A stretch of DNA of 32,163 bases from the IMG/VR virus record IMGVR_UViG_3300029258_004591, positions 1-32,163 of that record; one strand, written 5' to 3'. This stretch comes from a virus. This document shows, piece after piece, positions 4,360-32,163 of the stretch (position 1 is its first letter; each line of letters begins with the position of its first letter). The translations under genes were made by a program, and so were the position numbers. The notes beneath the pieces were generated by a model. That model was not told the origin of the DNA, did not search any database, and saw only the letters and a list, made by a program, of their open reading frames with translations.

Positions 4360-4878
4360 TTACTCGATGTAATCTACCGCCCCGGGAAAAGATGGCTCGA
4401 CGAAGAATGCATCCTTGATTTTCCGTCGAGCCCCGACTTTAGCCAGTTGCTTCTCCGTAAGCCTGGCAAGCGATTCCTTATCGACCGTCTCTTTAGTCCT
4501 GATATAGGCCTTGGCCTTTGCTTTTGAGAATACCTTTTTGATTAGCTCCAGCGTGGTCTTTTTTATGCTGATTGATGTGCTCTTTCGCCAGCCTAATGTC
4601 CCGAAATACAGTGTTTTGCTTTTTTGCTTGCCGAATTTGTCCTTGTTGGTTTCGGCGAATACCTCGAGACTGCGTGCGTACAGTTTGATTTTTTCCTGCA
4701 GCGTTTTTGTCTTTTCAGCCAGGTCCGCCTTTGCCTCGTCGATTTTATCTTTTGCGGTGTGTTCGGCCTGGTTGATTTCAAGCTGCAGGTCGCCTATTTT
4801 GCGGATGTGTTCATCGGCATTTTCCCAGTCGGTGATTCGAACGATCGTGGGCTTATCCGGTTTTATTCTTTTGGACAT
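4360..4878 (-). CDS. gam: Host-nuclease inhibitor Gam
   Basis: A 172-residue protein of the Mu Gam family, the Ku-like homodimer that coats double-stranded DNA ends and blocks host exonucleases. The visible family pattern is an N-terminal segment with ADEHIRKIGDLQLEINQAEHTAKDKIDEAK, a long helix (AEKTKTLQEKIKLYARSLEVFAE), then a beta region containing TLYFGTLGWRKST and a basic C-terminus. The start at 4878 is chosen because GGAGGT lies 5 bases upstream; a GTG further out would swallow that site. The gene overlaps the gp16-like gene by 26 bases. In Mu, gam is also a semi-essential early gene downstream of A and B. Confidence 0.88.
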   Translation of the reverse strand: MSKRIKPDKPTIVRITDWENADEHIRKIGDLQLEINQAEHTAKDKIDEAKADLAEKTKTLQEKIKLYARSLEVFAETNKDKFGKQKSKTLYFGTLGWRKSTSISIKKTTLELIKKVFSKAKAKAYIRTKETVDKESLARLTEKQLAKVGARRKIKDAFFVEPSFPGAVDYIE

Positions 4879-5374
4879 TACTGACCTCCATGTCACTCTG
4901 GATTTGCTTTAGGTTTGAATAATTCTTGCCCGTCTGCCGGGAAAACATCGACTTTAACGCCTCGATTACATTATATGCCGTCCTGGGTGATAGCTTGCTG
5001 AGATTGTCGGCCGCTCCGTTCGTGGCCTTCTTTAGTATCCCGCATAATTGCTCATCGTTCCATCCCAGATCGCCGGCCAGCTTTTTTATCGCCGACTGCT
5101 GAGCGAAGCTTGCGACATCGCCGTTAATCTCAGCCGCCTTGCGGCGGAAGTGGTCGGCCGCTTTGTCCGGGCACCGCCAGCCGTGCGCCTCGCAGATTGC
5201 CAGGATATCGGTTGATTGCGAATTGTTTAATTGCTTACAGCTCGTAACGCGGCTGCCGTCCGGCCGTTTATACTGGCTGAGCAGGAGCCGGTACCTGGTC
5301 TCAGCCTTTTTCCTGCGGATTCCGGCCGCCTTAACAGCCGTTTGAACCAGTTTTATTTGATTATTATTGAGCAT
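4853..5374 (-). CDS. Mu gp16-like regulatory protein (DUF1018)
   Basis: A 173-residue protein resembling the Mu gp16/DUF1018 family of early phage proteins. An N-terminal helix QIKLVQTAVKAAGIRRKKAETRYRLLL is followed by CKQLNNSQSTDILAICEAHGW, the usual short-domain motif. The C-terminal part (QQSAIKKLAGDLGWNDEQLCGILKKATN and SKLSPRTAYNVIEALKSM) completes the family pattern. It lies between the ATPase gene and gam, as in many transposable phages. The molecular role of the family is not well defined; a regulatory role is inferred. Confidence 0.75.
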   Translation of the reverse strand: MLNNNQIKLVQTAVKAAGIRRKKAETRYRLLLSQYKRPDGSRVTSCKQLNNSQSTDILAICEAHGWRCPDKAADHFRRKAAEINGDVASFAQQSAIKKLAGDLGWNDEQLCGILKKATNGAADNLSKLSPRTAYNVIEALKSMFSRQTGKNYSNLKQIQSDMEVSNVQKNKTG

Positions 5375-5579: not shown

Positions 5580-6701
5580 CTATCCTGCCTTTGCCGCTTT
5601 TTGTTCTGCCTCTTCGAGCGGCTCTTTAATCTCGACCGGCAGCCACACCTTGACCGGCAGCCGCATCTGGTCGATGGCGTCCAGAATCAGCTGAGCATCG
5701 ATGCGCTCGGTTTCTTTTGCTATTGTAGCCGTATGCAGTGCCATAATAATCAGCTCGCACGTACGGACCCTTCCGGTCCTGGCCGACCGGCATATTCTCT
5801 GCAGCAGTTTTACTGCATCGTTTGTCAGTCGAATCCCGCCGTACTGATAGAGCTTTCGGATATCTTCTATGGTATAAAGCCCACCATCTTTTTCCGCAGC
5901 CGCTGCATCGAGGTTAAGTATATAACTCAGTCGCGATGTGAACTGGTCGAGCGACTCGCACCCCCGCCGGGACTTTGGCTGCATTATGGTATTTAAGAGG
6001 TCCGCGTTACCTGAAAGTATCAGCGGGCATCTGCATTTGACCGCTATAATCTGCCGTAGCTGGTTCAATTCTTTGACATTGAGCGAAGAGCATTCATCGA
6101 GTATTATTATTACGTGCCTGTTCTGCAGGTTCTCGATGAGCCGTTCGGTGACCTTGGCGAGCATCCCCGATGAATCGACTCCGAGCTTCTTTGCAATCTC
6201 GGCGAATATTGTCGTCGAGCGCATCGTATCGTCGAGCTCGGCGTATATGGTATTTCGATTGGCCTTTGCGTACTGCTGCAGGCATATACTCTTGCCGTGC
6301 CCGGCATCTCCGATAATGATTCCTATTCGGCCTTCGCTGCTGGAAAAATCCTCCGTCTTCTTTATAAGTGCGTATATACTCTGTGCAATGGTTGTTCTCA
6401 CGAACGGTGGCCCCTGCACCTGCCTCTCTTTTCGCTGCACCGAATCCATCCACTGCACGGATTTATTTACCATTTCATCGAGGTTGCCTTTATACTTTTT
6501 CGCAAGGAACTGGCTCAGTCGCGTATTCCCGATATTCAGTAGTCTCGCCACCCGCGTCTGCGTGTATCCCCTCTCTGCCATAAAGCCGGAAAGTTTATCG
6601 GCTACTATGTCGGCCTCTTTTTTTGTCATGTCCCTTGGCATCCTTTCCTGTATTACGCGGGCATCCTGCTCGAGCCATTTCTGGAGCCCTTTTTTATTCA
6701 T
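5580..6701 (-). CDS. muB: MuB-like AAA+ ATPase, transposition target selector
   Basis: A 373-residue AAA ATPase. MuB binds DNA as ATP-dependent filaments, delivers target DNA to the transpososome and gives target immunity. Residues ~25-70 form a helix-turn-helix (ERGYTQTRVARLLNIGNTRLSQFL) like the N-terminal domain of MuB. Walker A GDAGHGKS is at residues 131-138, Walker B VIIILDE ends at 203, and a sensor-1-like LILSGNADLL follows. The C-terminal helical part (residues ~270-345) resembles the MuB C-terminal domain. The ATG overlaps the end of the transposase gene by 8 bases, the order expected for A and B. Confidence 0.93.
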   Translation of the reverse strand: MNKKGLQKWLEQDARVIQERMPRDMTKKEADIVADKLSGFMAERGYTQTRVARLLNIGNTRLSQFLAKKYKGNLDEMVNKSVQWMDSVQRKERQVQGPPFVRTTIAQSIYALIKKTEDFSSSEGRIGIIIGDAGHGKSICLQQYAKANRNTIYAELDDTMRSTTIFAEIAKKLGVDSSGMLAKVTERLIENLQNRHVIIILDECSSLNVKELNQLRQIIAVKCRCPLILSGNADLLNTIMQPKSRRGCESLDQFTSRLSYILNLDAAAAEKDGGLYTIEDIRKLYQYGGIRLTNDAVKLLQRICRSARTGRVRTCELIIMALHTATIAKETERIDAQLILDAIDQMRLPVKVWLPVEIKEPLEEAEQKAAKAG

Positions 6702-8610
6702 CGAAGATTTTTCTCCTTGTCTTTTTGTTTGGGTTCATCGCTGTAAAGTCCAAATCCAGTACAGTCCTTGTCGACTCGGCTCCGGCCGCCTTCTTGACGG
6801 CGCGTACGATGTCGGCCCTCTTATGCTCGGCCACCTGCGAGTCGAACGGAGTTCTTACCGGCCGGATGGTTTTTGTTTTTTGTTTTTCGTGTGTTTTTTG
6901 GCCGGCGGCCATTGCCTTCATCGAAAGCGTCGTTATGTCCATATTCGCGGTAAGCTGCGAATCTTTATATGCCTTGGCGACTTTCAGTGCGGTCGCTTTT
7001 TGCCGCGTCGCTTCTCTATACGCCTCATCTGATACCGCCGAGCCGTATCGCACAAGTTCGTTCTGCTCGGCTCCCGTTACGAGTTTAAGCGTCACCGCAT
7101 CGTATACGTCGATGACGGCTAAGTTGTCCGGGTCATAAGCGACCCTTACCTTTTTACCCTGATAAGCGAGCAGCTTGGGATTGAACTGTCCGTAATACAT
7201 ATTCTTGAATCGCACACCGTTTTTACCGACTGCGATTTCTCCGCTCCACGCCCGCAGCAATAGGTCGATTACCCCTTCGGCCATGACCCGCTGCGAGCGT
7301 CTCTGGCCCAGTACCTCCAGCGGCGCCCTTTTGTCCATCCCCGCCCCGCTGTGAGCCGTATTGTTATAGACCTTTACGTACTGACCGACTAATTTTGTAA
7401 AGCTTTCGATATCATGCGCCTCGGCGATCGCCTTTTCGCTCGACAATAGGTCTTTTAAGTAATCCGGCTTTCGTTCGGAATCTTTACCGCAGTAGGTCGG
7501 CATTGTCTTTGTAAACTGAACATCGAGCGTATCGAAGAACCGCTCGATTAGTTTCGACTGCGGATGGTACGGCAGCGAGAACGATACCGCCACTTCGAGC
7601 ATCGCGTAAAGTCCGGCCACCATATACTCATCAATATAACCCTTGCGAAGCGCCCTTCTCTTTGCTTTTGTAGTCCCGGTCCACATCTGGCTGTCGTAAT
7701 CTTTTCCGTTATCGATTTTGACCGCATCGGGCGGTCCGTAACTTTCGATTGCTTTTTTCATAGCACGCAGAATTGTCGTCTGGTTCGGCGTTGTCGATAT
7801 ATGAAATCCTGTTATGGTCCTGCTCCTGTAATCCTCCCAGGCGGTGACCCACGGCCGCCCCCATTTGCCTCGATGTCGGATCCAGCAGTTAAATTGATGA
7901 TGGTCTCCGACCCACATCGCCCCGGGCTGGACGCTGTCGGGATCGCTCTGTATGTAAGGCGCGTACTTTGCCTGGTAAGCGGCCAGTCCCTCTCGATGCA
8001 GCACCTGTACCGGCTGCGGGATTTGCCTGTTAATATATTTATACATAAAGTCGAGTGACGGCACCCGCCAGCCTTTTTTTTGGCTTTTGTTGATATAGCA
8101 GACGTTTTGCCAGCAGCTCTTTACCGAAAGTCTCTGCTGCGTCAGGTACATCGCCTTGAATAATTCGAAGGCGTCTTTACTGATCGCATCGGCCCCGGCC
8201 ACTCCCCCCCTGGTATCGACCAGGCCGATTAATCCCTGGTGCATGTATTTGGACATACATCTCTGCAGCGTTCGCTTCTTGATATTGTGGGTTGCAACGT
8301 ACAAATCGAGTGCTTTATTTTTACTGATACAGCTACTGCTGCATCTGGCGGCGAATTCCTCGAAGTCTTTTATGATACCCAGCCGTCTCACGGCCTCATC
8401 TCTTTTATGTTTCGCTATAGCCGCTAATTCCGCCGGGTCATGGTCCTTTGATTCGGCTACCGCTAAGGCCGGCTCTGCGGTAGTCGGTATCCGCCACTTC
8501 CCACCTGCTCTTTCGGCGCCGGCAAGTTTTCCTTCCCGGCAGAGCCGGCGGACGTGCCTAGCTGTCTGCCCGAGCAGCTCCGCCGCCGTTTTAATATCAA
8601 GATATTTCAT
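6694..8610 (-). CDS. muA: MuA-like DDE transposase
   Basis: A 638-residue DDE recombinase that should cut the phage ends and join them to target DNA for integration and replicative transposition. Residues 1-45 form a MerR/excisionase-like helix-turn-helix (YLDIKTAAELLGQTARHVRRLCREGKL). A second helical DNA-binding region follows at ~85-195. The RNase H-fold core has D236 (WVGDHHQF), D300 (AVKIDNGKDY) and E356 (QSKLIERFFD), the complete DDE triad. The C-terminal ~200 residues match the beta-barrel and tail of MuA-type enzymes. It starts one base after the preceding gene. All catalytic residues are present, so it looks functional. Confidence 0.95.
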   Translation of the reverse strand: MKYLDIKTAAELLGQTARHVRRLCREGKLAGAERAGGKWRIPTTAEPALAVAESKDHDPAELAAIAKHKRDEAVRRLGIIKDFEEFAARCSSSCISKNKALDLYVATHNIKKRTLQRCMSKYMHQGLIGLVDTRGGVAGADAISKDAFELFKAMYLTQQRLSVKSCWQNVCYINKSQKKGWRVPSLDFMYKYINRQIPQPVQVLHREGLAAYQAKYAPYIQSDPDSVQPGAMWVGDHHQFNCWIRHRGKWGRPWVTAWEDYRSRTITGFHISTTPNQTTILRAMKKAIESYGPPDAVKIDNGKDYDSQMWTGTTKAKRRALRKGYIDEYMVAGLYAMLEVAVSFSLPYHPQSKLIERFFDTLDVQFTKTMPTYCGKDSERKPDYLKDLLSSEKAIAEAHDIESFTKLVGQYVKVYNNTAHSGAGMDKRAPLEVLGQRRSQRVMAEGVIDLLLRAWSGEIAVGKNGVRFKNMYYGQFNPKLLAYQGKKVRVAYDPDNLAVIDVYDAVTLKLVTGAEQNELVRYGSAVSDEAYREATRQKATALKVAKAYKDSQLTANMDITTLSMKAMAAGQKTHEKQKTKTIRPVRTPFDSQVAEHKRADIVRAVKKAAGAESTRTVLDLDFTAMNPNKKTRRKIFDE

Positions 8611-10819: not shown

Positions 10820-11000
10820 TTTTCCGGATTTCGAACTCTTTTTGAATGTCAAAAATGATGGCTTGTTGTTGTTTTTCCATCGTAACATCCCTGTATTAAG
10901 AAGGTTACGCTCCCTCGCTGCGGTTTCTCCCCTAAACTCTCCTCGGGTTCGTTTTTCTCGCAGCCGACAGCTTCTGTTATATTAACAGCCTAAAAATTTT

Positions 11001-11027: not shown

Positions 11028-11097
11028 CGGACGTTTATCCTGTAAGATGTTCTCTAACCGGAGTTTAATTGGCTGAATATTTTTTTGGGGATTTTTT

Positions 11098-11334
11098 ATG
11101 AAGACCAACAACCCAAAGCATTTACCTTATAGCGTTGCATTTATAATAATAAGCAGTATAGGTATGGTCGTCTCCTTTGTAGGCCTTTTAGGAGCCATTG
11201 TTCAGGTTTCCAAAGACGGGATGTTCGTTTTTGCCTTACTGTTCTTGCTCAGCGTCATCGTGCGCGGTTTAGCCTCTATCATAGAAGCTGTTAATGAAAA
11301 CACTAATGATCTCCGCAAAAGAATGGGGGATTAA
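11098..11334 (+). CDS. Small membrane protein with two TM segments (78 aa)
   Basis: Seventy-eight residues with two hydrophobic segments (~11-34, SVAFIIISSIGMVVSFVGLLGAI; ~42-60, MFVFALLFLLSVIVRGLAS) and a charged C-terminus (NENTNDLRKRMGD). GGGGA lies 6 bases before the ATG. Two-TM phage proteins at this place can be holins or superinfection-exclusion proteins. With the lysozyme located elsewhere, the holin assignment is only a possibility. Confidence 0.55.
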   Translation: MKTNNPKHLPYSVAFIIISSIGMVVSFVGLLGAIVQVSKDGMFVFALLFLLSVIVRGLASIIEAVNENTNDLRKRMGD

Positions 11335-11335
11335 C

Positions 11336-11548
11336 ATGATACTAACAAAAAGATATAAGGCGTATATTGATAGTCTGAGTTATCGCGAGCTTTTGGCTCA
11401 CTGGCGTGATATATCTGCTTCTGATCCATGGTTTCAGGGGCAGACAGGCGAATATTGGAAGAAACGGATGTCTGAATTGAAGGCTATTGACCCTGATGGT
11501 GCTTTAAGAGATTCTGAAAGTATAGGTTTTCGACAGCAAAAAAAATAA
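11336..11548 (+). CDS. Hypothetical small protein (70 aa)
   Basis: The start is taken at the ATG at 11336, one base after the preceding stop and with GGGGGA upstream. Seventy residues, helical and aromatic-rich (KRYKAYIDSLSYRELLAHWRDI, then DPWFQGQTGEYWKKRMSEL). Coupled translation with the membrane protein suggests a shared function. No family is recognised. Confidence 0.5.
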   Translation: MILTKRYKAYIDSLSYRELLAHWRDISASDPWFQGQTGEYWKKRMSELKAIDPDGALRDSESIGFRQQKK

Positions 11549-11558
11549 ATTTTAGTAT

Positions 11559-11586
11559 TTGCATTCATCTTGCCGAAGCGTATATT
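11559..11586 (+). promoter_or_regulatory. Predicted sigma70-type promoter
   Basis: TTGCAT (11559-11564) and TATATT (11581-11586) are separated by 16 bases. This predicts a transcript start near 11593, inside an intergenic region whose only downstream element before 11690 is a strong terminator. Planctomycete promoters may differ from the E. coli consensus, so confidence is moderate. Confidence 0.45.
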
Positions 11587-11592
11587 AGGTAA

Positions 11593-11690
11593 AAATTAAC
11601 GGGTGAGAGTCCTTACCTTTTGCCCGCAGTGGCCTGAAACACATCAGCCCGCTGACTGAGTTTGTGAAACTTGTCAGCGGGCTTTTTATT
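11593..11690 (+). ncRNA. Candidate ~100-nt small RNA or attenuated leader
   Basis: Between the gene ending at 11548 and the gene at 11741 lies a promoter-like element, a folded segment and a strong intrinsic terminator, with no reading frame. GGTAA (11588-11592) can pair with TTACC (11613-11617). GTG-CAC near 11630-11643 could form a small stem. CGGG near 11600 could pair with CCCG near 11623, across the first stem, giving a possible pseudoknot. It may be a free small RNA or a conditional leader of the 11741 operon. No known RNA family is recognised. Confidence 0.45.
11646..11690 (+). terminator. Strong intrinsic terminator
   Basis: AGCCCGCTGAC (11646-11656) pairs perfectly over 11 bases with GTCAGCGGGCT (11673-11683) and is followed by TTTTTATTT. 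This is the best rho-independent terminator in the window. It separates the small regulatory genes from the next gene group. Confidence 0.85.
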
Positions 11691-11740
11691 TAAACCCGCC
11701 CCGAATAACGGATTGTCATTTCTACGGAAAGGAATCCGAA

Positions 11741-11953
11741 ATGCAACGTCACAGGTTATTGTTGGAGCTTAAGAAAGATGACTATATTTCTTTCAAAGTC
11801 CAGGGTTCTGATAAATCTATCGGTCAAGTCAGGTTAGATGAAAAAAGCCCTCTGGCGTATGCAAATCTTGTATTCGAGTTCGTTCCTAATATTGAAATTA
11901 TTAGAGGTCGGGCCAAGAATAAGGCCCAAAATTGTAAACAGAAAGGAGTCTGA
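11741..11953 (+). CDS. Hypothetical small protein (70 aa)
   Basis: Seventy residues with a beta-rich core (HRLLLELKKDDYISFKVQG, IGQVRLDEKSP, YANLVFEFVPNIEIIRG) and a basic C-terminus. AAAGGA lies upstream of the ATG. The pattern is faintly like a CsrA-type fold but lacks the family signature, so I do not assign it. It is the first gene after the terminator and is followed at once by the lipoprotein. Confidence 0.55.
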   Translation: MQRHRLLLELKKDDYISFKVQGSDKSIGQVRLDEKSPLAYANLVFEFVPNIEIIRGRAKNKAQNCKQKGV

Positions 11954-11954
11954 A

Positions 11955-12281
11955 ATGAACCCCAAACTATTAACCCTCGCTATCATCCTGTGTCTCTGTG
12001 CATCTCTGTCTTTTGCCGGCTGTGCTCAAGTTAAGTATGGCGGCGCAGAATATACCCGGCTCGGCGATGTCAAAACAAAAGGAGCTTATGTCGAGAACAT
12101 CATCGGCCCCGCAAAGGTTACTGTTGACCCGAATACTGGTCTGCATAACTACCTGCTTGATGCAAACGGTATCTATACGCGGTTTTCGTTTGATTCACAG
12201 GAAAGCAAAGGCGAGCTCAATATCGATACGCTTGCCGCCACAATCGCAGAGGCCGTAACAGCGGCTCTCGGCGGTACATAA
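11955..12281 (+). CDS. Small lipoprotein (108 aa)
   Basis: The start is taken at the ATG at 11955, with AAGGAG upstream; it directly follows the stop of the previous gene. The N-terminus is a lipoprotein signal: NPK, hydrophobic LLTLAIILCLCASLSF, then the lipobox AGC with Cys23. The mature part is ~86 residues, ending in a helical LAATIAEAVTAALGG. In late phage regions small lipoproteins may be outer spanins or exclusion factors. It lies just upstream of the DUF1353 gene and near the possible lysis region, but nothing here proves a lysis role. Confidence 0.7.
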   Translation: MNPKLLTLAIILCLCASLSFAGCAQVKYGGAEYTRLGDVKTKGAYVENIIGPAKVTVDPNTGLHNYLLDANGIYTRFSFDSQESKGELNIDTLAATIAEAVTAALGGT

Positions 12282-12296
12282 CAATCTAAAAAAACG

Positions 12297-12680
12297 ATGT
12301 CAAAGCAAATTAAATATCGAATTCTCGGCGGCTACAAGTATCTGCTCGAAGAGGAATATCTGTACCCGACAGGTATCGCCCTCGCCGCTCGCATCGAAAC
12401 CGATTACCTGGCTTTGGAAGTCGATGGTGTTTTGTTAATCAAAAAGTCCTATGCATGGGACGGTGCTTCCGGTCCCGCTATCGACACGGCGGATTTCATG
12501 CGGGGCTCACTCGTCCATGATGCCCTTTACCAGCTCATACGGCTCGGCCTGCTGGCTAAAAAATATCGCAAGAGGGCGGACCAGCTCCTGCGTAAAATCT
12601 GCCGCGAGGATGGCATGCCCTTCTGGCGGGCCTTTTACGTTTACAGGGTGGTCCGCAGGTTCGGCGTATTCGTTGTTTAA
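12297..12680 (+). CDS. DUF1353-family phage protein
   Basis: A 127-residue protein matching the DUF1353 pattern: IKYRILGGYKYLLEEEY, KKSYAWDGASGPA, FMRGSLVHDALYQLIRLG, then RKRADQLLRKICREDG and a terminal FYVYRVVRRFG helix. The conserved WDGAS and HDALY motifs are both present. The family occurs in many tailed phages, often near lysis or head genes, and its function is unknown. There is no clear ribosome site before the ATG, so translation may be weak or coupled. Confidence 0.8.
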   Translation: MSKQIKYRILGGYKYLLEEEYLYPTGIALAARIETDYLALEVDGVLLIKKSYAWDGASGPAIDTADFMRGSLVHDALYQLIRLGLLAKKYRKRADQLLRKICREDGMPFWRAFYVYRVVRRFGVFVV

Positions 12681-12696
12681 TAAGGAGACAGTGACT

Positions 12697-13089
12697 ATGG
12701 ATTTTCAGTTGAACATCGCAATGGTCGTTATCGGCGGCTGCGTTTCAATCGTAGGCGCACTTATTGTAGTTAATCTCCGCTCAATCAAGAAGTGCCTGTC
12801 GGGCCTCGGCCTCCGAATCGATAAGCAGGATGACAGGATCGAAAAGACCCGCGATGAGGTAACCGCCCTCTCCGGTAGCATGTCCGCCTGCAAAATCGAC
12901 TGTGACCGCACCTTTGTCAATAGTGAGGTCTTTCTTCGCGAGACCGGTTTTGCCCGCCGGACTTTGGAGAATGTTACTTCGGCCGTCAACAGGGTCGAGG
13001 GCAAGCTGACGGTAGTGGAAAAGTTGCCGCAGATTTGCGGTGACATCAGCAGAGAAATAGTTAAGGAAATGAAAAACGGAGCACCGTAA
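12697..13089 (+). CDS. Mu gp25-like membrane/coiled-coil protein (130 aa)
   Basis: The start is the ATG at 12697, with AAGGAGA upstream. The 130 residues begin with a membrane segment (FQLNIAMVVIGGCVSIVGALIVV) and then a long charged helix (RIDKQDDRIEKTRDEVTAL, FARRTLENVTSAVNRVEGKL). This is the layout of the Mu gp25/DUF2730 proteins found just before the terminase genes. The stop overlaps the next ATG (TAATG). The family function is unknown; a membrane-linked assembly or lysis role has no proof. Confidence 0.6.
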   Translation: MDFQLNIAMVVIGGCVSIVGALIVVNLRSIKKCLSGLGLRIDKQDDRIEKTRDEVTALSGSMSACKIDCDRTFVNSEVFLRETGFARRTLENVTSAVNRVEGKLTVVEKLPQICGDISREIVKEMKNGAP

Positions 13090-13397
13090 TGGACGGAAAA
13101 GTTGAGGCAACAAAAATAAAGCAGATGCGTCGGCTGCTGCTTAACAATATGAACCGGCTGTACCCGACCGCTCTGCAGGTCCAGACCCTTTACAATTCGA
13201 TGTGCGGCTTCGATGAAAACTACGATTTTACCCTCCTCGAAAAGGACATCACTTATCTCAAAGACAAAGGCTACATCGAGTACATCGATGACATGCTCGG
13301 CGGGGCGGACTCTTTCCGCAAGAAATGCGTCAAGCTCACCGCTGAGGGTAAAGAAATCGCCGACCGCACCCAGACCGACCCTGCCCTGGAGATATAA
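13089..13397 (+). CDS. Mu gp26-position winged-helix protein (102 aa)
   Basis: One hundred and two residues with a winged-helix look: KIKQMRRLLLNNMNRLYPTALQVQTLYNSM, DYDF/TLLEKDITYLKDKGYIEYID, and a C-terminal KKCVKLTAEGKEIADRT. This is typical of small phage proteins that sit between gp25 and gp27 homologues. The ATG overlaps the preceding stop by one base. A DNA-binding role in packaging or regulation is plausible but inferred. Confidence 0.6.
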   Translation: MDGKVEATKIKQMRRLLLNNMNRLYPTALQVQTLYNSMCGFDENYDFTLLEKDITYLKDKGYIEYIDDMLGGADSFRKKCVKLTAEGKEIADRTQTDPALEI

Positions 13398-13400
13398 CTG

Positions 13401-14000
13401 ATGGCAAAGCGAACGCACTCATCGCTCGATAAATTGCCCGCCGAGTTGCGGGAGGCATTGACTTCCATGGTGGTCGACAACGCCTGGCCCGCCGACTTTC
13501 CTCGCCGCAAGGCTTTTGGTTTTAAGGCCGATGACAGTGAGCTTATAGGCAAACCGCGTTACGAAGACCTTGTCACTTACTGTGATCACAAAGGCTTCAA
13601 GGTTTCCAGGTCGGCGGTAGGGCGGTTCGGTATGCGAATGAGGATGCTTGCCAAGATGAAAAACGCTGGTGTGGTTGTTCGCGAGGTAATGTCCGACCTG
13701 AATGAAGATAAGGCATCTGCTACACAAAAAGCCGTTGCTGAAATGATAACTGCCCAGACTATAGAGTTCATCGTTTCCCAGGACGATATGAGCTCTAATG
13801 AAATCAAGAACATAGCCAGGGCGATGAAGGACTGCACGCAGATTTCTATTGCTGCTGACCAGTACATCCGCACCCAAATCCAGGAGAAGGTCGAAAAGGC
13901 CTGTGAATCCACAAAGGCCAAGCTCACCAGGGCCGGTGTGGACAGTAAAAAAATCCAGGAAATCATAGATGAGCATTTAGGAGTGGTCAAAAAATCGTAA
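13401..14000 (+). CDS. Mu gp27-like protein (DUF3486), probable small terminase
   Basis: A 199-residue protein of the DUF3486 family. SSLDKLPAELREALTSMV opens the domain; YEDLVTYCDHKGFKVSRSAVGRFGMRM is the conserved helix-turn-helix-like core. A long helical region follows (residues ~85-195). The family sits directly before the large terminase and is regarded as the small terminase/DNA-recognition subunit. The last codons run GTG GTC AAA AAA TCG TAA, and the large terminase frame continues in -1 with no start codon of its own. That makes the end of this gene a possible frameshift site. Confidence 0.85.
   Translation: MAKRTHSSLDKLPAELREALTSMVVDNAWPADFPRRKAFGFKADDSELIGKPRYEDLVTYCDHKGFKVSRSAVGRFGMRMRMLAKMKNAGVVVREVMSDLNEDKASATQKAVAEMITAQTIEFIVSQDDMSSNEIKNIARAMKDCTQISIAADQYIRTQIQEKVEKACESTKAKLTRAGVDSKKIQEIIDEHLGVVKKS
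13979..13994 (+). promoter_or_regulatory. Possible -1 frameshift or non-ATG start signal for the terminase
   Basis: AGGAG at 13979-13983 is followed by an A6 run at 13989-13994 that is read AAA AAA in the gp27-like frame, four bases before that frame's stop at 13998. The large terminase frame is -1 relative to it. An SD-like sequence plus an A-rich slippery site is the arrangement used by dnaX-type -1 frameshifting. Alternatively AGGAG serves an ATC start at 13994. Confidence 0.45.
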
Positions 14001-15379
14001 CCAAGACAGAAACAAAACCGCCGGCCCAAATCTCGCAGGGTTATTTTCTGCCCTATCAGAACGACTGGATACTCGATGACAACCGCTTTAAGCTCTGGGA
14101 TAAGTCCCGTCGTATCGGCGCCACTTACGCCGAGAGTTACAGGGCGGTCCGTCGCCGCAACCTGCTCGACCACAAGCGTGACTATTGGTTCTCCAGCGCC
14201 GATGAATCGGCGGCGGTTGAGTTTTCTCTTTACTGCCAGCAGTGGTGCAAGCTCATCGAGGCCGTGTCCGAGGCCTTTACCGAGGATCTCGAGGACGAAA
14301 AGGGCTACAGGTATAATAATTACGTTGTCGAATTTCCCACCGGCAGCCGCATCAACTGTATGAGCAGTAACCCCCGCCGGTTCCGGTCTAAAGGCGGTGA
14401 CATCTGTCTTGATGAATTCGACTGGCACGACAAGCCCGGCGAGATGCTCGATGCCTCCTCGCCGAGCACGATGTGGGGATATGATATCAGTATCCTTACC
14501 ACGCGAAACGGCGAGGGCTCAGAATTCGATAATCTCGTAAAGACTGCCAGGAAAATCCAGGCCGGTCAGCTTGACCCGGACAAAGATTCCGTCCTTCCCT
14601 GGAGCTATCATTTTGTCCCGATTACCGTTGCCGTTGAGCAGGGCCTCGCCGAGAAGATTTACCGCCTCGATCGTATAGATGCTGCTGCCAGGGAGAAGTT
14701 AATTCGCGAATGCCGCGCCAAGAGCCGCAACGAGGACGCCTTTAACCAGGAGTATATGTGTATCCCCTCGGCGGCCGCCTCGACTCTCATTCCTTATGAT
14801 TTATATCAAAGCTGCGAATTGGCCGACTGCATCCAGTCCCTCGTCCCCCACACAGAAGAACAGCGTCAGTACTTCCTCGGCGGCGATATCGGCCGCGAAA
14901 AACACCTTACCGTATTCTGGCTCTGGGAGCTCGTGGGCGATTGTCTGATTTGCCGCAAAATTATCAAGCTTCACAAAACGCCTTACAGCGTCCAGCTGCA
15001 GACGGCAAGCGACCTGCTCGCTAACCGCAATATATTGAAAGGCTGCATCGACGCCACCGGCATCGGTGACATGCTTACTGAAACGCTCCAGGAAAGGTTC
15101 GGCAGCTATCGTATCGAGAAAATCAAGTTCACCAACCCTGTAAAGGAGCATCTCGCCTCACAGGTCCTCGGCCGGATGGAGGATAAGCGTCTCCGCGTCC
15201 CTGCTGACATGGCTATTCGTGAGAGTTTTCATTCCGTCAAAAAGACGGTAACGGCAGCCGGCAATATTCGTTTCGATGCCGCCAGCACCGAGGCCGGCCA
15301 CGCAGATGAATTCTGGGGCGCTGCTCTGGGGATCGAGGCCGCCGCTTCCGAGTCAAAACCCGAGGTCATTTTACTTTAA
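13994..15379 (+). CDS. Mu gp28-like large terminase
   Basis: About 461 residues counted from a provisional ATC at 13994. The terminase packages DNA into the prohead using ATP and cuts it. Near the N-terminus GYFLPYQNDWILDDNRFKLWDKSRRIGAT contains the gp28-type Walker A-like KSRRIGAT (~37-44). Walker B is ICLDEFDW (~140). The RNase H-like nuclease is at YFLGGDIGREKH (Asp ~298), then CIDATGIGDML, and AGHADEFWGAALGIEA at the end. The frame has no ATG, GTG or TTG between its upstream stop at 13970 and 14264, yet the Walker A region lies in between and is clearly coding. Translation must start unusually, or by frameshift, or there is a sequence error. Confidence 0.88.
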   Translation: MVTKTETKPPAQISQGYFLPYQNDWILDDNRFKLWDKSRRIGATYAESYRAVRRRNLLDHKRDYWFSSADESAAVEFSLYCQQWCKLIEAVSEAFTEDLEDEKGYRYNNYVVEFPTGSRINCMSSNPRRFRSKGGDICLDEFDWHDKPGEMLDASSPSTMWGYDISILTTRNGEGSEFDNLVKTARKIQAGQLDPDKDSVLPWSYHFVPITVAVEQGLAEKIYRLDRIDAAAREKLIRECRAKSRNEDAFNQEYMCIPSAAASTLIPYDLYQSCELADCIQSLVPHTEEQRQYFLGGDIGREKHLTVFWLWELVGDCLICRKIIKLHKTPYSVQLQTASDLLANRNILKGCIDATGIGDMLTETLQERFGSYRIEKIKFTNPVKEHLASQVLGRMEDKRLRVPADMAIRESFHSVKKTVTAAGNIRFDAASTEAGHADEFWGAALGIEAAASESKPEVILL

Positions 15380-15388
15380 GGTCTGATT

Positions 15389-17764
15389 ATGGCAGAAGCT
15401 GTAAAATTAAGTCCCGAAGCCGCTGAGATGTTAAAGGCCGCCATTGATAAGCAGATCGAATCTGCCAAGAAGGGCATCAGTCTGGGCCAGCTTGCCCGTC
15501 TATGGGATACCGGCCAGTCTCTTGTCGATGGCTCTTCCAGTAAACCGAAATATCCGTACAAGCAGGTCGAGCTGGTCTTTGCCTGTATCAACAAGCTCAT
15601 CAGCTCTGTTTCCGGCCTGCCGCCGGTAATCTCTAATATCAAGGAGCAGATTATCGAATCCGGGCCTGCCTATGATTTGTTATTTAAGAGTCCGTCTCTC
15701 AGTTGGGAGCGTTTTGTCACCGAGACGATTGGTCATTACGCACTCAGTCGGGACGTCTTCTGGGTCTTTACCGATATGGCCGGTCGTCAGCCCAAGGAGA
15801 TTACCGTTATAAGCGGCACTCAGATGCACCCCGTCACTCACGACCGCACCGCTGGGGGAATACTTTTGGGTTGGGAGTTTCGCGGCACGGGCGGCCACCG
15901 CGCCACTTTCACGCTCGATGAAGTCTGGCAGTGGAAGAATTTCAATCCGTACGATCCTTATCACGGCATAGGCCCTGCCGCCGCTGCCAAACTGTCTATC
16001 AACTACAGCTACGCCGCCTCGTTATTTAATACCTCGGCCCTCGATAACGGCGCCGAGCCCGGAATCATATTAACAATGCCCGGCTCGCCTGGTGAAGAAC
16101 AGATCCGTATGATGCGCAGCCAATTCGACTCCCGTTACGCTGGTGCCGGCAATGCCAAGAAAACAGCCCTTTTGGTCGGTGGAGTAGATGTTAAGACCGT
16201 GGCACAAACGATGGTCGATTTGGATGTGGCGACTCTTACAGACAAATCAGATAATAAAATCTGCGCCTGTTTCGAGGTTCCGCCTCCTGTTGTCGGCCTT
16301 GTCACTGAGGCCCAGTACTCTCACGGCCCTGCTCAGAAGGATTTTATCTTCAATACGATTATACCGCTGGCTCGTTTGTTCGCCGGTAACATTACCAGTG
16401 GTATCCTGTCTCGTTTTTATACCGATTCGGCTCGCGGTGTTGCCTTGAAAGATGCCCGCCTCTATCACGGACTGAAACACCTCTCGCTGGCGAGAAGGTC
16501 TTCATTCCGTGATGCATACCACAAGGCCGTCTCGCAGAACCGCTCTGTCTTTATATGGTTCGATACCGGCCAGCACCCTGTGGTCCAGGAATTTCAGCGT
16601 GAGACCGCCGAGAAGGTCCTTAATTTCACCAAGTCCGGTGTCGTCCTGAACAACCTTATAGAGGCCCACGATTTACCATACGAATTAAACGAATGGGGCA
16701 ACCACTGGTGGATCGGTATAGGCCTGGTCCCAGCCGAGTATACGCTTGAGGCTGGTCTGGAGGGTCTGACCGGCCCGTCCCTACCGGAGGGCGAAGAGCC
16801 GAAGTCTTTACCCGGACCGGTTACCGAAACAGATCTTGATGTCCAGATCAAGGCCGACCAGCAGCAGGCACTTCGTATCTGGCGCAACTGGGTGACATCA
16901 TGGGCGGGTATCGAGAAGGAATATTCCGAGGCGATGCGTAAATACTTCCTGCGACAGCAGAGGCTCTTACTGGCTCAATTAAAGAAAGCCCTTGCCAGCG
17001 AGACACGAGCCGCTGGTCACGAGTCACGGGCCGCCGGCGATATCATCGCCCGCATCGTTTTCGATTTGAAGCTCGAGAACAACAAAATCAAGGTAATCAA
17101 CAACACCTTTTTCGGCAAGGCTGCCGAGTTGGGTATCCGCCAGTCACTGTCAGAGGCTGCCGGTCTTACCGGCGAGGCCCTTGACGAGGCTGCCGCTGCG
17201 GCCAAGTTGTCACCGAAGGTAAGGGGTAAAATGCTGATTTCGTCGAGTAAAATCACTGGCGTCAATAAAACTACGCAGCAGATGGTTACCGAGCAGTTAA
17301 GTTCCGGCCTCGAATCCGGCGAGGGCCTGAGCGATCTTACCGGCCGCATCAAAAAAGTCCTTGGCTCCAACAGGGCAAGGGCCCTTTCAATCGCCCGCAC
17401 CCAGACGGCGGGCGCTGTCGGCACCGGCCGCCACCAGGGCCTCTCCGCCGCCGGTATTGAGAAGAAGGGCTGGCTTACCAGCGCAGATAGTAACGTCCGT
17501 CCCTCCCACACCTCCGCCGGGCTCAAATACGCCGAAGGTATAGCCGTTGATGTCCCATTCGAGGTCGGCGGTGAGTATTTAATGTACCCGGGTGATCCTG
17601 CCGGCTCAGCCGGTAATATTATCAACTGCCGCTGCGCCGAGATCGCCATCGCCGCCGCCGGCAAAACTTTCGATCTTGCCCATTACAGCAATCTTAAATT
17701 TTATTCTTATAGCGATATGCAAATCGACTTAACCAAAAACAAGGACCATAAAAATGGAAACTAA
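15389..17764 (+). CDS. Portal protein fused to a MuF head-morphogenesis domain
   Basis: A 791-residue fusion. Residues ~50-430 are an HK97-type portal: YPYKQVELVFACINKLISSVSGLPPVI, the LSRDVFWVFTD region, and CACFEVPPPVVGLVTEAQYS. The portal ring forms the DNA gate and contacts the terminase. Residues ~500-620 are helical. Residues ~650-755 carry a MuF domain: ALSIARTQTAGAVGTGRH, GWLTSADSNVRPSHT, and PGDPAGSAGNIINCRCAEI. In most phages portal and MuF are separate adjacent genes. The fusion is in frame throughout. The gene starts shortly after the terminase and overlaps the protease by 11 bases. Confidence 0.9.
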   Translation: MAEAVKLSPEAAEMLKAAIDKQIESAKKGISLGQLARLWDTGQSLVDGSSSKPKYPYKQVELVFACINKLISSVSGLPPVISNIKEQIIESGPAYDLLFKSPSLSWERFVTETIGHYALSRDVFWVFTDMAGRQPKEITVISGTQMHPVTHDRTAGGILLGWEFRGTGGHRATFTLDEVWQWKNFNPYDPYHGIGPAAAAKLSINYSYAASLFNTSALDNGAEPGIILTMPGSPGEEQIRMMRSQFDSRYAGAGNAKKTALLVGGVDVKTVAQTMVDLDVATLTDKSDNKICACFEVPPPVVGLVTEAQYSHGPAQKDFIFNTIIPLARLFAGNITSGILSRFYTDSARGVALKDARLYHGLKHLSLARRSSFRDAYHKAVSQNRSVFIWFDTGQHPVVQEFQRETAEKVLNFTKSGVVLNNLIEAHDLPYELNEWGNHWWIGIGLVPAEYTLEAGLEGLTGPSLPEGEEPKSLPGPVTETDLDVQIKADQQQALRIWRNWVTSWAGIEKEYSEAMRKYFLRQQRLLLAQLKKALASETRAAGHESRAAGDIIARIVFDLKLENNKIKVINNTFFGKAAELGIRQSLSEAAGLTGEALDEAAAAAKLSPKVRGKMLISSSKITGVNKTTQQMVTEQLSSGLESGEGLSDLTGRIKKVLGSNRARALSIARTQTAGAVGTGRHQGLSAAGIEKKGWLTSADSNVRPSHTSAGLKYAEGIAVDVPFEVGGEYLMYPGDPAGSAGNIINCRCAEIAIAAAGKTFDLAHYSNLKFYSYSDMQIDLTKNKDHKNGN

Positions 17765-18515
17765 ATATTTTTTTGCAAACGTCAAAAAAATCAACGAAAC
17801 CGAACGCACCCTCGACGCCGTCGCCTCCACCAGCGCCCTCGACCGTGACAATGACATCATCCTGCCGGAGGCCTTCCGTGAAACCATAGACGCCTTCAAG
17901 GCCAACCCTGTTATTTTAGCCACTCATCAGCACCGCTTAAGCACCGGCTCCTCGCCGGTCATCGGTTCTGCAATCCCTGAATCCATCGTAATAGGTGATA
18001 AAGAGGTCACTTTTACTATGCGTTTCGCCGGGACTCCGCTCGGCGAGGAATACTGGCAGCTCTACAGGGACGGTCATATGCGGGCCTTTAGTATAGGCTT
18101 TATTCCTATCGAGCATGAAGACCAAAAGGATGAGCATCTCGGTTACATTCGTACATATACGAAGATCGAGCTTCTGGAGATCTCCGCCGTCCCCGTCCCC
18201 TCCAACCGCCAGGCCCTTGCCCGTGCCAAGGGCTTCTTCGAGACCGAGGATATCAGGGACGGCATCGCCGAAACTGTTAAGGCCGTCACCGAGCAGGTTA
18301 TCAATGACCAGCTCGACAAATTTACTTTACGTATTGAGGACAGATTAGACCAATTCGAATCTGTTATAGTCGAATCGGACGGATTTGCGAACAGGCTGCT
18401 GCGCGGCGGCCGGCTCGAACCATCCGCTCCTGACGACAATCCCATAGCCGCGCTTAGTCAGTTGGAAAGAATCAAGAATATTTTAATTGATGGAGGTCAT
18501 TCAAATGACACCTGA
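17754..18515 (+). CDS. HK97-type prohead protease
   Basis: A 253-residue serine protease of the U35/HK97 prohead family, which removes the capsid delta region during maturation. Visible motifs are RTLDAVASTSALDRDNDIILPEAF at the start, the probable catalytic His in LATHQH, the Ser in MRAFSIGFIP, and the IELLEISAVPVPSNRQALA end motif. The C-terminal ~90 residues are a charged helical tail. It overlaps both the portal gene and the start of the capsid gene. The order portal-protease-capsid is standard for HK97-like heads. Confidence 0.92.
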   Translation: METKYFFANVKKINETERTLDAVASTSALDRDNDIILPEAFRETIDAFKANPVILATHQHRLSTGSSPVIGSAIPESIVIGDKEVTFTMRFAGTPLGEEYWQLYRDGHMRAFSIGFIPIEHEDQKDEHLGYIRTYTKIELLEISAVPVPSNRQALARAKGFFETEDIRDGIAETVKAVTEQVINDQLDKFTLRIEDRLDQFESVIVESDGFANRLLRGGRLEPSAPDDNPIAALSQLERIKNILIDGGHSNDT

Positions 18516-19884
18516 ACAAATCGAAAATAAATTAAACGAAACGGTCAATACCATTGAGCAGGCAGTTGAAGACATACGTACCAATAAGGCCAGCCGCCAG
18601 GAAGTCGTCGAACTAATCGATGACCGCACCAAATCCGACAAGGAGATGCTCGAAGCCACCAAGACCGACATTGAAACGCTCAATACCGGCATCGCTGAAA
18701 TGAAGGAAGCTACCGATGCCCTGCAGACCCAGGTTCGCACGCTCAGTAAGGCCGGCATAACCGCCCGACTCGGCACTAAGAACAACTACAAGGGCTACTT
18801 CTCCTCTCCGGCCGAAGCAAAGGCCTTTGCTCTGCTTATTATGGCCGCGACCACGTGCCATTCAAGGGTCTCCGAGCATCACGACAGGGCCAAAAAGGCG
18901 CTGGACGATATAGGTCTCGAGCCGCACTGGCTGAATGCCGATGGACGCAAGGCGATGACCGGCTCTTCTCAGACCGGCGGCGGTGCCCTTGTCACCGTCG
19001 AGCAGATACCGACTATCATGATGCTGCTGGAGCAATACGGTAAATTCCGCGCTAACGCCCAGGTTATGCCGATGGGGGCCGGCCAGACCCTGACGCCCAA
19101 GATTGACGGACTGTTGGCCGTTACCTGCCCGGGCGAGGGCGGCACGATTAACGAGCAAGATCCGGAGATTGATATTGTATCGCTGCTGCCGAAGACTCTC
19201 AGTGCCATAACCTGCTACAGTATGGAGCTCGAAGACGACTCTTTAGTCGCCCTGGGTGAAATGCTGGCCGGCCTGTTCGCCCGCAGCTTCGCTTACTATG
19301 AGGATTTATGCGGATTCAAAGGCGATGGCACCAGCACCTATTTCGGCTACACAGGTATCGCAGGCGCCCTTCGTGCCGTCGATGCCACCATCGCCAATAT
19401 CAAGTCTCTCGTGGTCGGGGCCGGTAACGCCTACAGCGAGCTGACCCTTGCCAACTTCGAAGAGGTTGCAGGCACAGCACCTGTTATAGCAGAAGACGAG
19501 TTCCTCAAGTGGTACGTCCATAAGTATTTCTTCTGGACGGTTATGGTTAAATTGGCCCTGGCCGCCGGCAGTGGCACTGCAACTGAAATCCTTACCGGCC
19601 AGGCTCTGAAGCAAAAGACGTATTTGGGCTACTCTGTCGAGTTTGCCCAGGTAATGCCCAAGGCCGAGGCCAACAGCCAGATCTGCGCACTGCTGGCTAA
19701 CCTCAAGCAGGGTGCGATACTTGGCACTCGCGGCGGGATTGAGTTTGCCACATCGTCCGAGCGATACTTCGAGAAGGGCGTTATTGGTGTTCGAGGCCGC
19801 GACCGCATCGCCATCAACGCCCACGGTGTCGGCGATACGACCGATGCCGGCCCTATCTGCGCCCTGATTACCGCTGCATCGTAG
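18505..19884 (+). CDS. HK97-fold major capsid protein
   Basis: The start is the ATG at 18505, 7 bases after GGAGGT; earlier start codons would place that site inside the gene. The 459 residues begin with a ~90-residue coiled-coil delta-like domain (NKLNETVNTIEQAVEDIRTN ... DALQTQVRTL) that should act as internal scaffold and be removed by the protease. An HK97-fold body follows: VTVEQIPTIMMLLEQYGKFRANAQVMPMGAG, FARSFAYYEDLCGFKGDGTSTYFGYTGIAG and FATSSERYFEKGVIGVRGRDRIAINAHG. It overlaps the protease gene by 11 bases. Confidence 0.93.
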   Translation: MTPEQIENKLNETVNTIEQAVEDIRTNKASRQEVVELIDDRTKSDKEMLEATKTDIETLNTGIAEMKEATDALQTQVRTLSKAGITARLGTKNNYKGYFSSPAEAKAFALLIMAATTCHSRVSEHHDRAKKALDDIGLEPHWLNADGRKAMTGSSQTGGGALVTVEQIPTIMMLLEQYGKFRANAQVMPMGAGQTLTPKIDGLLAVTCPGEGGTINEQDPEIDIVSLLPKTLSAITCYSMELEDDSLVALGEMLAGLFARSFAYYEDLCGFKGDGTSTYFGYTGIAGALRAVDATIANIKSLVVGAGNAYSELTLANFEEVAGTAPVIAEDEFLKWYVHKYFFWTVMVKLALAAGSGTATEILTGQALKQKTYLGYSVEFAQVMPKAEANSQICALLANLKQGAILGTRGGIEFATSSERYFEKGVIGVRGRDRIAINAHGVGDTTDAGPICALITAAS

Positions 19885-29488: not shown

Positions 29489-29695
29489 TTACTTGGCTTT
29501 AGGAAAGTGCAGCCGTGCACCTAATGCGTTGAGTATGAGCTGTAGATTGGCGGCGGTCATCTCGCTGCGGCCTGACAAATAATTGTCAATCGCCGCAGTT
29601 GTTATTTGGTAATTGAGTTCTTTAGCTAGAGCGTAGCCGCTGTTGATTTCGAGTTGTTTCATCCTTTTTTTGAGCTGTTGGCGAAAGTCAATCAT
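29489..29695 (-). CDS. XRE-type helix-turn-helix regulator (68 aa)
   Basis: The start is the ATG at 29695, with GGAGG 6 bases upstream and an 8-base overlap with the previous gene. Sixty-eight residues with a Cro/CI-like domain: FRQQLKKRMKQLEINSGYALAKELNYQITTAAIDNYLSGRSEMTAANLQLILNALG. The layout is the same as in antitoxins and small phage regulators. As the last gene of a three-gene operon next to an AT-rich palindrome, it may autoregulate that operon. Confidence 0.75.
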   Translation of the reverse strand: MIDFRQQLKKRMKQLEINSGYALAKELNYQITTAAIDNYLSGRSEMTAANLQLILNALGARLHFPKAK

Positions 29696-30116
29696 TGCCG
29701 GCCTCCATATAAGCATCGTAATCGGCTAAAAACTCCTCTACTTCGCTTAGTAACTGCGTCAGGTCCTCCGGCGGCTCATCTATCCAAACAAAGTTGCACA
29801 GCGTCTCTCCCCTGCGTGTCTCATATTCGAACGGCGGATTAAGTGCCTCATCGGCTTCAACGAGCTCGGCAATAAATCTGGGCTGGCGGGTATGTACTAT
29901 ATAACTGTGCAGTCCGCCTACATCATCCGCCCAGAGCCATTCCGATGGCGGTGGAATCTTGGTGTCAATTTTCCAGCCGGCCTCGACCGGCAGCAGGCCG
30001 GGGATTCGCATAACGAGCGCCTCGTCTCTGCCTTCGGGCAGTTGAAGCGATTCGGCGATTTGCCGCCATTTATCCGGCTGCTTAAAATCGGTTTTTTGAA
30101 TTTTTACAATCAACAT
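29688..30116 (-). CDS. Unknown acidic protein of the cargo operon (142 aa)
   Basis: A 142-residue acidic protein with no signal peptide or membrane segment. Features are KQPDKWRQIAESLQLPEGRDEALVMRIPGLLP in the N-terminal half, SYIVHTRQPRFIAELVEADE in the middle and an acidic C-terminal helix (DLTQLLSEVEEFLADYDAYM). Both ends overlap the neighbouring genes, so it is translated with them. No family is recognised. The operon lies between late genes and the modification locus, a typical cargo (moron) position. Confidence 0.6.
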   Translation of the reverse strand: MLIVKIQKTDFKQPDKWRQIAESLQLPEGRDEALVMRIPGLLPVEAGWKIDTKIPPPSEWLWADDVGGLHSYIVHTRQPRFIAELVEADEALNPPFEYETRRGETLCNFVWIDEPPEDLTQLLSEVEEFLADYDAYMEAGND

Positions 30117-30628
30117 TTTTGCACCCTTTCTTTAAAATGGCTGAAACTCTCATATGGTTCAAGCTCTCTGCCTTCGAATTCTTTCAATGATTCAAAGTCT
30201 TGTTGAGTAATTGCGATTTTTTTGGGGTAATAATCATCTGTTTTACAGTCGAGCGCTTCGAATTTAGCTACCGGCTGCCACCGCTTGCGGCCATCTCTGC
30301 CGATTTGCCGCTCAAATCCGGCAGAGAAAAAATAACGGGTTACAATCGGCTCTGCCCGCTCAGCCAGTACCTTATGGGCAAGCTCAGTTAAATTGGTGTC
30401 GGGATAAAAAAAGTAAGTTCTTCCCATAGTCGAGCCGCTGCCGCCTTTGTAAAACCCGCCGTGATGCCATTCGTCGGCAAAAGGTTTCAATTCTGCGGCA
30501 GTGATTTTTTCACCGCTCATTTTTCGCAGCTTTTTCGCCACTTCGCCTGCCGTAAGCAGCCCGTTGGCCGATGCCTCAGCGTGCCTTTCGCTAACATATT
30601 TGCCTATTTGTTCTATTGCAAGTGCCAT
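30110..30628 (-). CDS. Unknown protein, first gene of the cargo operon (172 aa)
   Basis: The start is the ATG at 30628, 8 bases after AAAGGAG. One hundred and seventy-two residues. Residues ~1-55 look like a helical, possibly DNA-binding, domain (GKYVSERHAEASANGLLTAGEVAKKLRKMSGEKITAAELKPFADEWHHGGF). A middle segment has GGSGSTMGRTYFFYPD. The C-terminal half is mixed (RKRWQPVAKFEALDCKTDDYYPKKIAITQQDFESLKEFEG). No family is recognised. It overlaps the next gene by 7 bases. Confidence 0.6.
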   Translation of the reverse strand: MALAIEQIGKYVSERHAEASANGLLTAGEVAKKLRKMSGEKITAAELKPFADEWHHGGFYKGGSGSTMGRTYFFYPDTNLTELAHKVLAERAEPIVTRYFFSAGFERQIGRDGRKRWQPVAKFEALDCKTDDYYPKKIAITQQDFESLKEFEGRELEPYESFSHFKERVQKC

Positions 30629-30670
30629 TTTAACTACTCCTTTCAATTTCTCTTTTAACTTTTAACTTCT

Positions 30671-30699
30671 ATTATAATTATACAATTATAATTACACAA
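30671..30699 (-). promoter_or_regulatory. Promoter with overlapping palindromic operator for the cargo operon
   Basis: The gap 30629-30830 holds no gene and is AT-rich. ATTATAATT (30671-30679) and AATTATAAT (30684-30692) form a perfect 9-base inverted repeat. On the minus strand TTGTGT (30694-30699) lies 17 bases before TATAAT (30671-30676), which is inside the palindrome. A regulator bound there, perhaps the XRE protein, would block the promoter. Confidence 0.55.
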
Positions 30700-30830
30700 G
30701 TCAAGTAAATTATTTCAAAATAAGCGAAAACTTTTCAAAATCGCTGTTTTTACCTTAAAAACAAGTTTTCTATGCTAAAAATTTTTCGTTAAAAATTACG
30801 CGGGTTATATTCCGGACAATAACTTCTACA

Positions 30831-31523
30831 ATGAGTGCAATTATTACAATCGGCTTTTACGTATCAGCCGGCTACTTACCGGGCGATTATGCCGTTTTGT
30901 TCGGTAACGCCGGCTCCGGCGGAATGGCATTGGGCCTGCAACAAGCCGGACTCGATGTAGTGGCAGCTGTTGAAATCAACAAATCCTGCGTTGAGACATT
31001 GAAAGCGAATAAGGCAAAAGCGTTTCCGAAAATGGAAATAATCCAAGAGGATATCACAACATTGTCCAGCGACTACCTTTTGAAAAAGGTCGGCCTGGCT
31101 AAAGGCCAGCTTGATGTATTGAGCGGCGGTCCGCCCTGCCAGGGATTCACTTTCGCCAGTTCGAGGCGCTCAATAAAAGACCCTCGCTCAGGCATGGGGC
31201 CTGCGTGCGATGTAATACACCGATTCGGTCGCTTGAGGAGTCGTCAGAACACTGGGAAACTGAACTTAAAAAATCAGAGAACAAATTTGGGTATAAAAAT
31301 GAAAATGCCGTTTTTGCCGGTGCATATAATAAGAAGCCGCCGGCTCAAAAAGATTAAAGATGAGGCATTCGCCGAAGGCAAGATTAGTAATAAGAAGCTT
31401 ATCTGCGACCTGCTCGATACGAATAATCAGCTCACCGGCGATGTAAAGATGCTCTCCGGCGGCAAGACCCCTCATCTAAAACGCAGAAAAACCCGCAGAA
31501 AAACTCGCCTTAAAGCGAGCTGA
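30831..31523 (+). pseudogene. Chimera: tail-protein N-terminus + truncated C5-cytosine methyltransferase
   Basis: An open frame of 230 codons made of three parts. Residues 1-30 copy the N-terminus of the tail protein at 28977 (24 of 30 identical, 66% at DNA level). Residues ~28-120 are the first part of a C5-cytosine methyltransferase: motif I AGSGGMALGLQQAG, a motif-II-like AAVEINKSCVETLKANK, and motif IV GGPPCQGF with the catalytic Cys at 103. After DPRS (about 31193) the match stops. Motifs VI, VIII, X and the target-recognition domain are absent. The remainder is unrelated. It cannot be a working methyltransferase. Mu-like phages often keep modification genes here. Confidence 0.7.
31299..31523 (+). 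CDS. Possible small basic protein (74 aa)
   Basis: In the same frame as the chimera, ATGs at 31299 and 31305 could start a separate 72-74-residue protein. It has a charged, coding-like core (KIKDEAFAEGKISNKKLICDLLDTNNQLTGDVKMLSGG) and a very basic tail (KRRKTRRKTRLKAS). The ribosome site is weak (TTTGGG). It is followed at once by a terminator, which supports a real gene end. It may be the 3' part of an older gene fused to the methyltransferase fragment. Confidence 0.4.
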   Translation: MKMPFLPVHIIRSRRLKKIKDEAFAEGKISNKKLICDLLDTNNQLTGDVKMLSGGKTPHLKRRKTRRKTRLKAS

Positions 31524-31831: not shown

Positions 31832-32003
31832 TTAATTTGTGCCACCTTGGGCCAACGTCGGCGGCCTGGTGGCCTGTTTGTGCCACTTACGAAGGCTCTA
31901 CTTGAAATCACCCACTCCCGTAATAATCCGCTCTATCTGCTTAAAAACCGCCTAATCCCGCACAATCCCGTCTAATCCCGCCCATGTCCGCCTTATGCCA
32001 CTT
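31832..32003 (+). repeat. Three T-TGCCAC end repeats, candidate transposase sites
   Basis: Three copies in one orientation: TTTGTGCCACCTT (31836-31848), TTTGTGCCACTT (31877-31888) and CTTATGCCACTT (31992-32003). The last lies 16 bases from the phage end. Mu has three MuA sites (R1-R3) at its right end, with R1 at the terminus, so these are good candidates for the cognate sites of the transposase at 6694-8610. The stretch 31551-32019 has no gene. Confidence 0.6.
31911..32000 (+). repeat. Nine 10-bp-phased units ending mostly in CCG
   Basis: Ninety bases divide into nine 10-base units; seven end in CCG. Units 31951-31980 are the clearest (CCTAATCCCG, CACAATCCCG, TCTAATCCCG), and CCCATGTCCG follows. 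A ~10-base period places the same motif on one DNA face. The last unit merges with the terminal TGCCAC site. Confidence 0.65.
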
Positions 32004-32009
32004 CCCCTT

Positions 32010-32024
32010 AGTTTTTACATCGAG
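32010..32024 (+). other. Prophage right terminus and putative target-site duplication
   Basis: The phage end reads AGTTTTTACA with the last base at 32019, the ACA-3' (TGT inward) end used by Mu-like elements. The reading frame of the host IS256-type transposase is intact up to 32020 and stops exactly here, where the conserved Thr-Asn of RRCLGS-TN should follow. If the duplication is 5 bp as in Mu, it is TCGAG (32020-32024). Confidence 0.7.
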
Positions 32025-32161
32025 CCAAGACAACGACGCAGTGTCTTCGGAAGACCAAGCTTATTGATAGTAAACATCTCATCAATGCCTTCAAGAAGAC
32101 TGCTCGAGGCAGACGGATACTCCTGGCCGAGCCATTTGGCCAGTTGATTCAACTTCTTTTT
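32020..32161 (-). pseudogene. IS256/mutator-family transposase, interrupted by the prophage
   Basis: The minus-strand frame entering from the right edge reads LNQLAKWLGQEYPSASSSLL, EGIDEMFTINKLGLPKTLRRCLGS. This is the C-terminal-third region of IS256-family transposases, in which an RxxL.S is followed by TNxIE. The match ends at the phage boundary, and a stop codon arises four bases into phage DNA. The remaining C-terminal part should lie to the left of the prophage, outside this window. The gene start is also outside. This is host DNA, not phage DNA. Confidence 0.75.
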
Positions 32162-32163
32162 AC

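Follow-up and report, generated by a model that had tools for sequence, protein, structure and literature searches.

How the phage DNA ends in this record, and what lies beyond its last base, is the question raised by the final 160 bases of the window, i.e. the entire IMG/VR record of 32,163 bp, with no record sequence beyond. A preliminary description had placed a TGT-type phage end at 32019, inside an IS256-type transposase frame that runs intact from the right edge and loses its homology after RRCLGS. The analysis below agrees with this at almost every point. The window almost certainly represents most of a planctomycete Mu-like transposable phage that ends at 32019, its last 144 bases being host sequence from a single insertion in an IS256-type gene. 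The junction base, the layout of the end, the varied host flanks and the 5-bp duplication of a related element are direct observations.

An IS256-type gene interrupted at 32019/32020

The minus-strand frame 32161-32018 reads KKKLNQLAKWLGQEYPSASSSLLEGIDEMFTINKLGLPKTLRRCLGSM and then meets a TAA stop. This 48-aa transposase fragment displayed a weak match to the NCBIfam IS256 model (E 0.046, profile positions 252-297 of 338) and no match to Pfam. Relatives were found in 18 of the 397 genomes searched from one planctomycete class. The closest copy (L068) was 94% identical at the DNA level over 142 bp (E 1e-61), and its alignment stopped exactly at position 32020 of the window, after ...GGCTCGA, where the loss of homology had been proposed. 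Being uninterrupted across that base, it runs on as CTAATGTGATTGAG, which is read as LGS-TNVIES (onward TNVIESPNSG...). The conserved Thr-Asn was indeed lost at the break, and the phage end lies inside an IS element that the insertion disrupted.

Comparison with intact copies led to the same point. RRCLGTTN was present in longer uninterrupted relatives (439 and 432 aa), TN.I[ED]S also occurred in further copies with longer open frames, and the fragment closely matched planctomycete IS copies bearing the TN.IE motif. Since uninterrupted relatives read on in this way, the IS family does not naturally end with RRCLGSM. A frame that is phage-encoded, or that naturally has this ending, would explain why a stop is reached soon after the join; yet uninterrupted relatives extend some 70-80 residues further, through TN.I[ED], and the fragment, used as a query, had no relative in the viral contigs or related phages searched, so that this explanation can practically be dismissed.

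On the other side of the interruption, phage DNA opens with TGT at 32019 (minus strand) and continues as TGTAAAAACTAAGGGGAAGTGGCATAA. Judged from these alignments, the last 144 bases are bacterial host DNA, and the junction marks the phage end to the base. Coordinates are collected in Table 1.

Table 1. Features of the window, with strand and supporting evidence
Feature	Position	Strand	Evidence
GemA-like protein	4853..5374	-	Pfam GemA 7e-9
MuB-like AAA ATPase, next to MuA	5580..6701	-	Pfam AAA_22, TniB
MuA-type DDE transposase	6694..8610	-	Pfam Mu-transpos_C, HTH_Tnp_Mu_2, DDE_2, rve
Mu Gp27-like protein	13401..14000	+	Pfam Phage_Mu_Gp27 1e-16
Portal fused to Mu F-like domain	15389..17764	+	Pfam Phage_portal, Phage_Mu_F
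HK97-type major capsid protein	18487..19884	+	NCBIfam TIGR01554 1e-34
Core site 3, AGGTGGCACAA, at +173 (41 bp beyond core 2)	31837..31847	-	40-41 bp spacing in relatives with recognisable cores 2 and 3
Second core site AAGTGGCACAA, +132 from the end	31878..31888	-	Predicted, site layout
10-bp-phased CGGGA/TGGGA array, starts +40, +50, +60, +100 from the end	31916..31984	-	24/26 GGGA motifs phased over nine ends
Phage terminus, Mu attL type: TGT-N13-AAGTGGCATAA; core site 1 for the transposase at +17 to +27	31993..32019	-	Right ends of eight further phages share the layout
5-bp target TCGAG adjoining the phage end	32020..32024	+	Fits Mu target pattern NYNRN; second copy absent from the record
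Host DNA: interior of an IS256-type transposase gene broken by the phage	32020..32163	-	L068 94% identical over 142 bp of DNA and unbroken at this base

Layout of the terminus

The string TGT-N13-AARTGGCAYAA occurred once in the window, at the 32019 end (0.00 expected from shuffles). In exact or degenerate form, it also closed the right ends of eight other phages among the oriented relatives, in agreement with the terminus proposed at 32019, and these eight ends adjoined unrelated host DNA. Exact occurrences numbered 5 in 707 kb, against 0.05 expected, and every one was at an end. One of the relatives (G002, MuA 77% identical) ends with TGTAAAACTGAGGTTGAAATGGCACAA, beyond which nusG (recognised by profile) and an rplK-like gene (by eye) are both uninterrupted. 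The exact right-end 29-mer was found in no other record of the viral contigs searched.

These ends also bear on whether the IS flank could be an assembly artefact, i.e. an unrelated IS fragment joined by chance to a phage end, the IS never having been interrupted by the phage. The flank is just 144 bp long, IS copies are repetitive and disrupt assemblies, and an identical record (G001, see below) has a different host flank at its other end. However, the base at which phage and IS are joined is also the one at which eight related phages terminate, a coincidence not expected from a random chimera, and we consider such an artefact very improbable. The end call at 32019 holds even with a chimeric flank. 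The flank of the interrupted IS gene may nevertheless represent one molecule rather than a dominant lysogen, because 144 bp is about one read length.

Between the first and second core sites, right ends displayed GGGA motifs, 24 of 26 of which were in 10-bp phase (shuffle mean 0.47, maximum 4), although the nine sequences concerned are related to one another and do not amount to nine independent tests. Mu has its packaging site some 32-54 bp inside the left end, where it overlaps the Mu array. The phased array is a possible packaging or bending site. A broader proposal, which we put forward tentatively and at slightly less than even chances, is that a helically phased GGGA array is an attL landmark common to Mu, B3 and the planctomycete phages, probably marking where packaging starts or bending the DNA intrinsically. 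If true, the packaging end of uncultured Mu-like phages would be readable from sequence alone.

The opposite end and a probable second insertion

One end had initially been described as fixed to the base in an otherwise unbounded phage. The first part stands but the second does not, since the other end was located in G001 (IMGVR_UViG_3300017987_004248). This record was 100% identical to window positions 1-22834 (22,834 bp) and extended 3,986 bp leftward of window base 1. It displayed TGTAGTGTTGGCCTCAAAGTGGCATAA at its base 822, the core site being 16 bases away, as it is at the end of the window; this TGT-N13-AAGTGGCATAA end, with its N13 spacing kept, sits 3,165 bp beyond window base 1. Because G001 carries the opposite end, the genome would measure 3,165 + 32,019 = 35,184 bp (~35.2 kb). 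Mu-like transposable phages have genomes of about 36-39 kb; the present value is slightly under this range, and three relatives with both ends span 32.7-37.8 kb. Left ends of the same kind, some of them degenerate, were present in ten further relatives, and those with a recognisable core displayed a second one 20 bp later. Searched in the viral contigs, the exact left-end 27-mer was found in G001 only.

The left flank of G001 is a broken gene for an HNH protein, a relative of which continues for about 80 residues past the break, and the 5-mer adjoining the phage is CTAGG, versus TCGAG in the window. Since both the flank genes and the adjacent 5-mers differ, the two records most likely show two different insertions. 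G001 thus speaks neither for nor against the left junction initially predicted, with TCGAG and the Thr-Asn part of the transposase, which did not turn up in the viral contigs searched. They might also stem from the same copy, inserted once in a target that was then rearranged, leaving HNH and IS flanks without matching duplication; the 100% identity over 22.8 kb and the adjacent deletions or inversions that replicative transposition can leave would agree with this. Yet the 5-mers are different and Mu-like phages use many sites, which makes two insertions the simpler account and a single one unlikely. None of the 397 genomes of the class contained this phage as a complete prophage between its two flanks, nor did any of the records searched contain both flanks of this IS insertion.

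Target sites

NYNRN is a looser form of the Mu target pattern, and it fitted 11 of 16 flanks (p 2.9e-4), as compared with 1-7 of 17 in outward-shifted control windows. Insertion sites of the same or related phages were unrelated, being found in the IS256 gene, in the HNH gene and upstream of nusG. A perfect 5-bp target duplication, CCAGG, was observed at both outer ends of a related 17.6-kb element (G006 and G007). Mu makes a 5-bp duplication (PMC8705779) and its reported target preference is CYSRG (PMC5977238). In two relatives having both ends in one contig (G008 and G021), the 5-mers differed between sides, which would also be expected if contigs mix insertions or stem from replicative transposition and is not a positive sign. 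If the IS gene carries the TCGAG duplication, AATCACATTAGTCGAG (or the strain's own variant) should stand directly before TGTAGTGTTGG.

The 17.6-kb element (L027 of G006, positions 128-17699, with Mu-type ends; identical in L028) is composed of two modules in tandem and has an internal end at 9090; genes for MuA, MuB, an HK97-like capsid, a protease-like and an HTH protein occur in each module. An inspection of the ORFs by eye showed neither terminase nor portal. The whole may represent two small Mu-like elements, or satellites, that encode capsids.

Gene content, host and proposed mode of transposition

With the gene set of Table 1, the MuA-type protein would bind the AARTGGCAYAA sites and, aided by MuB, join the TGT ends to nearly random target DNA at cuts staggered by 5 bp. 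Mu-type transposition, here into an IS gene, is the most likely account. In the manner of Mu-like transposable phages, the phage would replicate by transposition and package host DNA by the headful, starting from the attL-type end at 32019. A planctomycete is the probable host, from the class to which the genome with the 94% identical IS copy belongs, and related MuA genes were located in Planctomycetota assemblies.

Some additional features were recorded. A C5-methyltransferase ORF (30831-31523) looks truncated, its Pfam match being limited to the first quarter of the model; a short conserved phage protein (MKMPFLPVHII...) is fused to it in frame. Segments on the tail-fibre side differed in order (window 1-1435 versus 29602-31509 in G002). 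In L020, positions 2637-4205, overlapping window 1-219, code for a protein of 522 aa that gave a weak trypsin-like match; its gene is close to the attR-type end and next to a glycosyltransferase-like gene.

Comparison with Mu and other transposable phages

The junction itself is ordinary for a Mu-like phage. This study provides base-exact ends, core sites and a target pattern for a little-known group of Planctomycetota Mu-like phages, and a literature search for such phages in Phycisphaerae found no paper. Prophages of this kind can now be delimited in metagenomes and their insertion sites collected.

Position 32019 had been called the right end, which is exact to the base and correct by coordinate. 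By its site layout, however, it is the counterpart of the Mu left (attL) end, an analogy based on the match of both the site spacing and the 10-bp-phased GGGA array. In Mu (Muvirus, Escherichia; NC_000929), the left end has CGAAA cores at 22, 127 and 167 and the right end, on the same strand, at 22 and 44 (distances from the respective end); the right-end cores of the window start at +17, +132 and +173 and left ends of the group display two, 20 bp apart. Both phages have TG ends, a first core half-site at +17, a distance of about 40 bp between sites 2 and 3 at one end, two neighbouring sites at the opposite end and, at attL, a GGGA array with 10-bp phasing, together with homologous MuA and MuB. 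They differ in core motif (AARTGGCAYAA versus the CGAAA type of Mu) and in the distance from site 1 to site 2 (115 versus 105 bp). Unlike in Mu, MuA of the window phage is not near attL but some 10 kb away from the attR-type end (for most of the planctomycete group, the distance to the left end is about 9-12 kb), and late genes are transcribed towards the attL-type end.

Similar GGGA arrays were observed at the left ends of SfMu and B3. They are not universal, the left end of D3112 having a single GGGA and those of RcapMu and BalMu-1 none. Bacillus phage BalMu-1 provided the closest annotated MuA in the phage collection searched, only 27% identical to that of the planctomycete group. Its core-like sites (+17/+124 and +17/+39) resemble those of the window phage, but it is distant, has its MuA 3.2 kb from the left end and lacks the GGGA array. 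Much closer are uncultured planctomycete Mu-like phages (e.g. IMGVR_UViG_3300031566_013099 and Planctomycetota contig JAUWIG010000054.1), whose MuA is 64-77% identical to that of the window and which share the same TGTAAA or TGTAGT ends where present, while their insertion sites and cargo are different.
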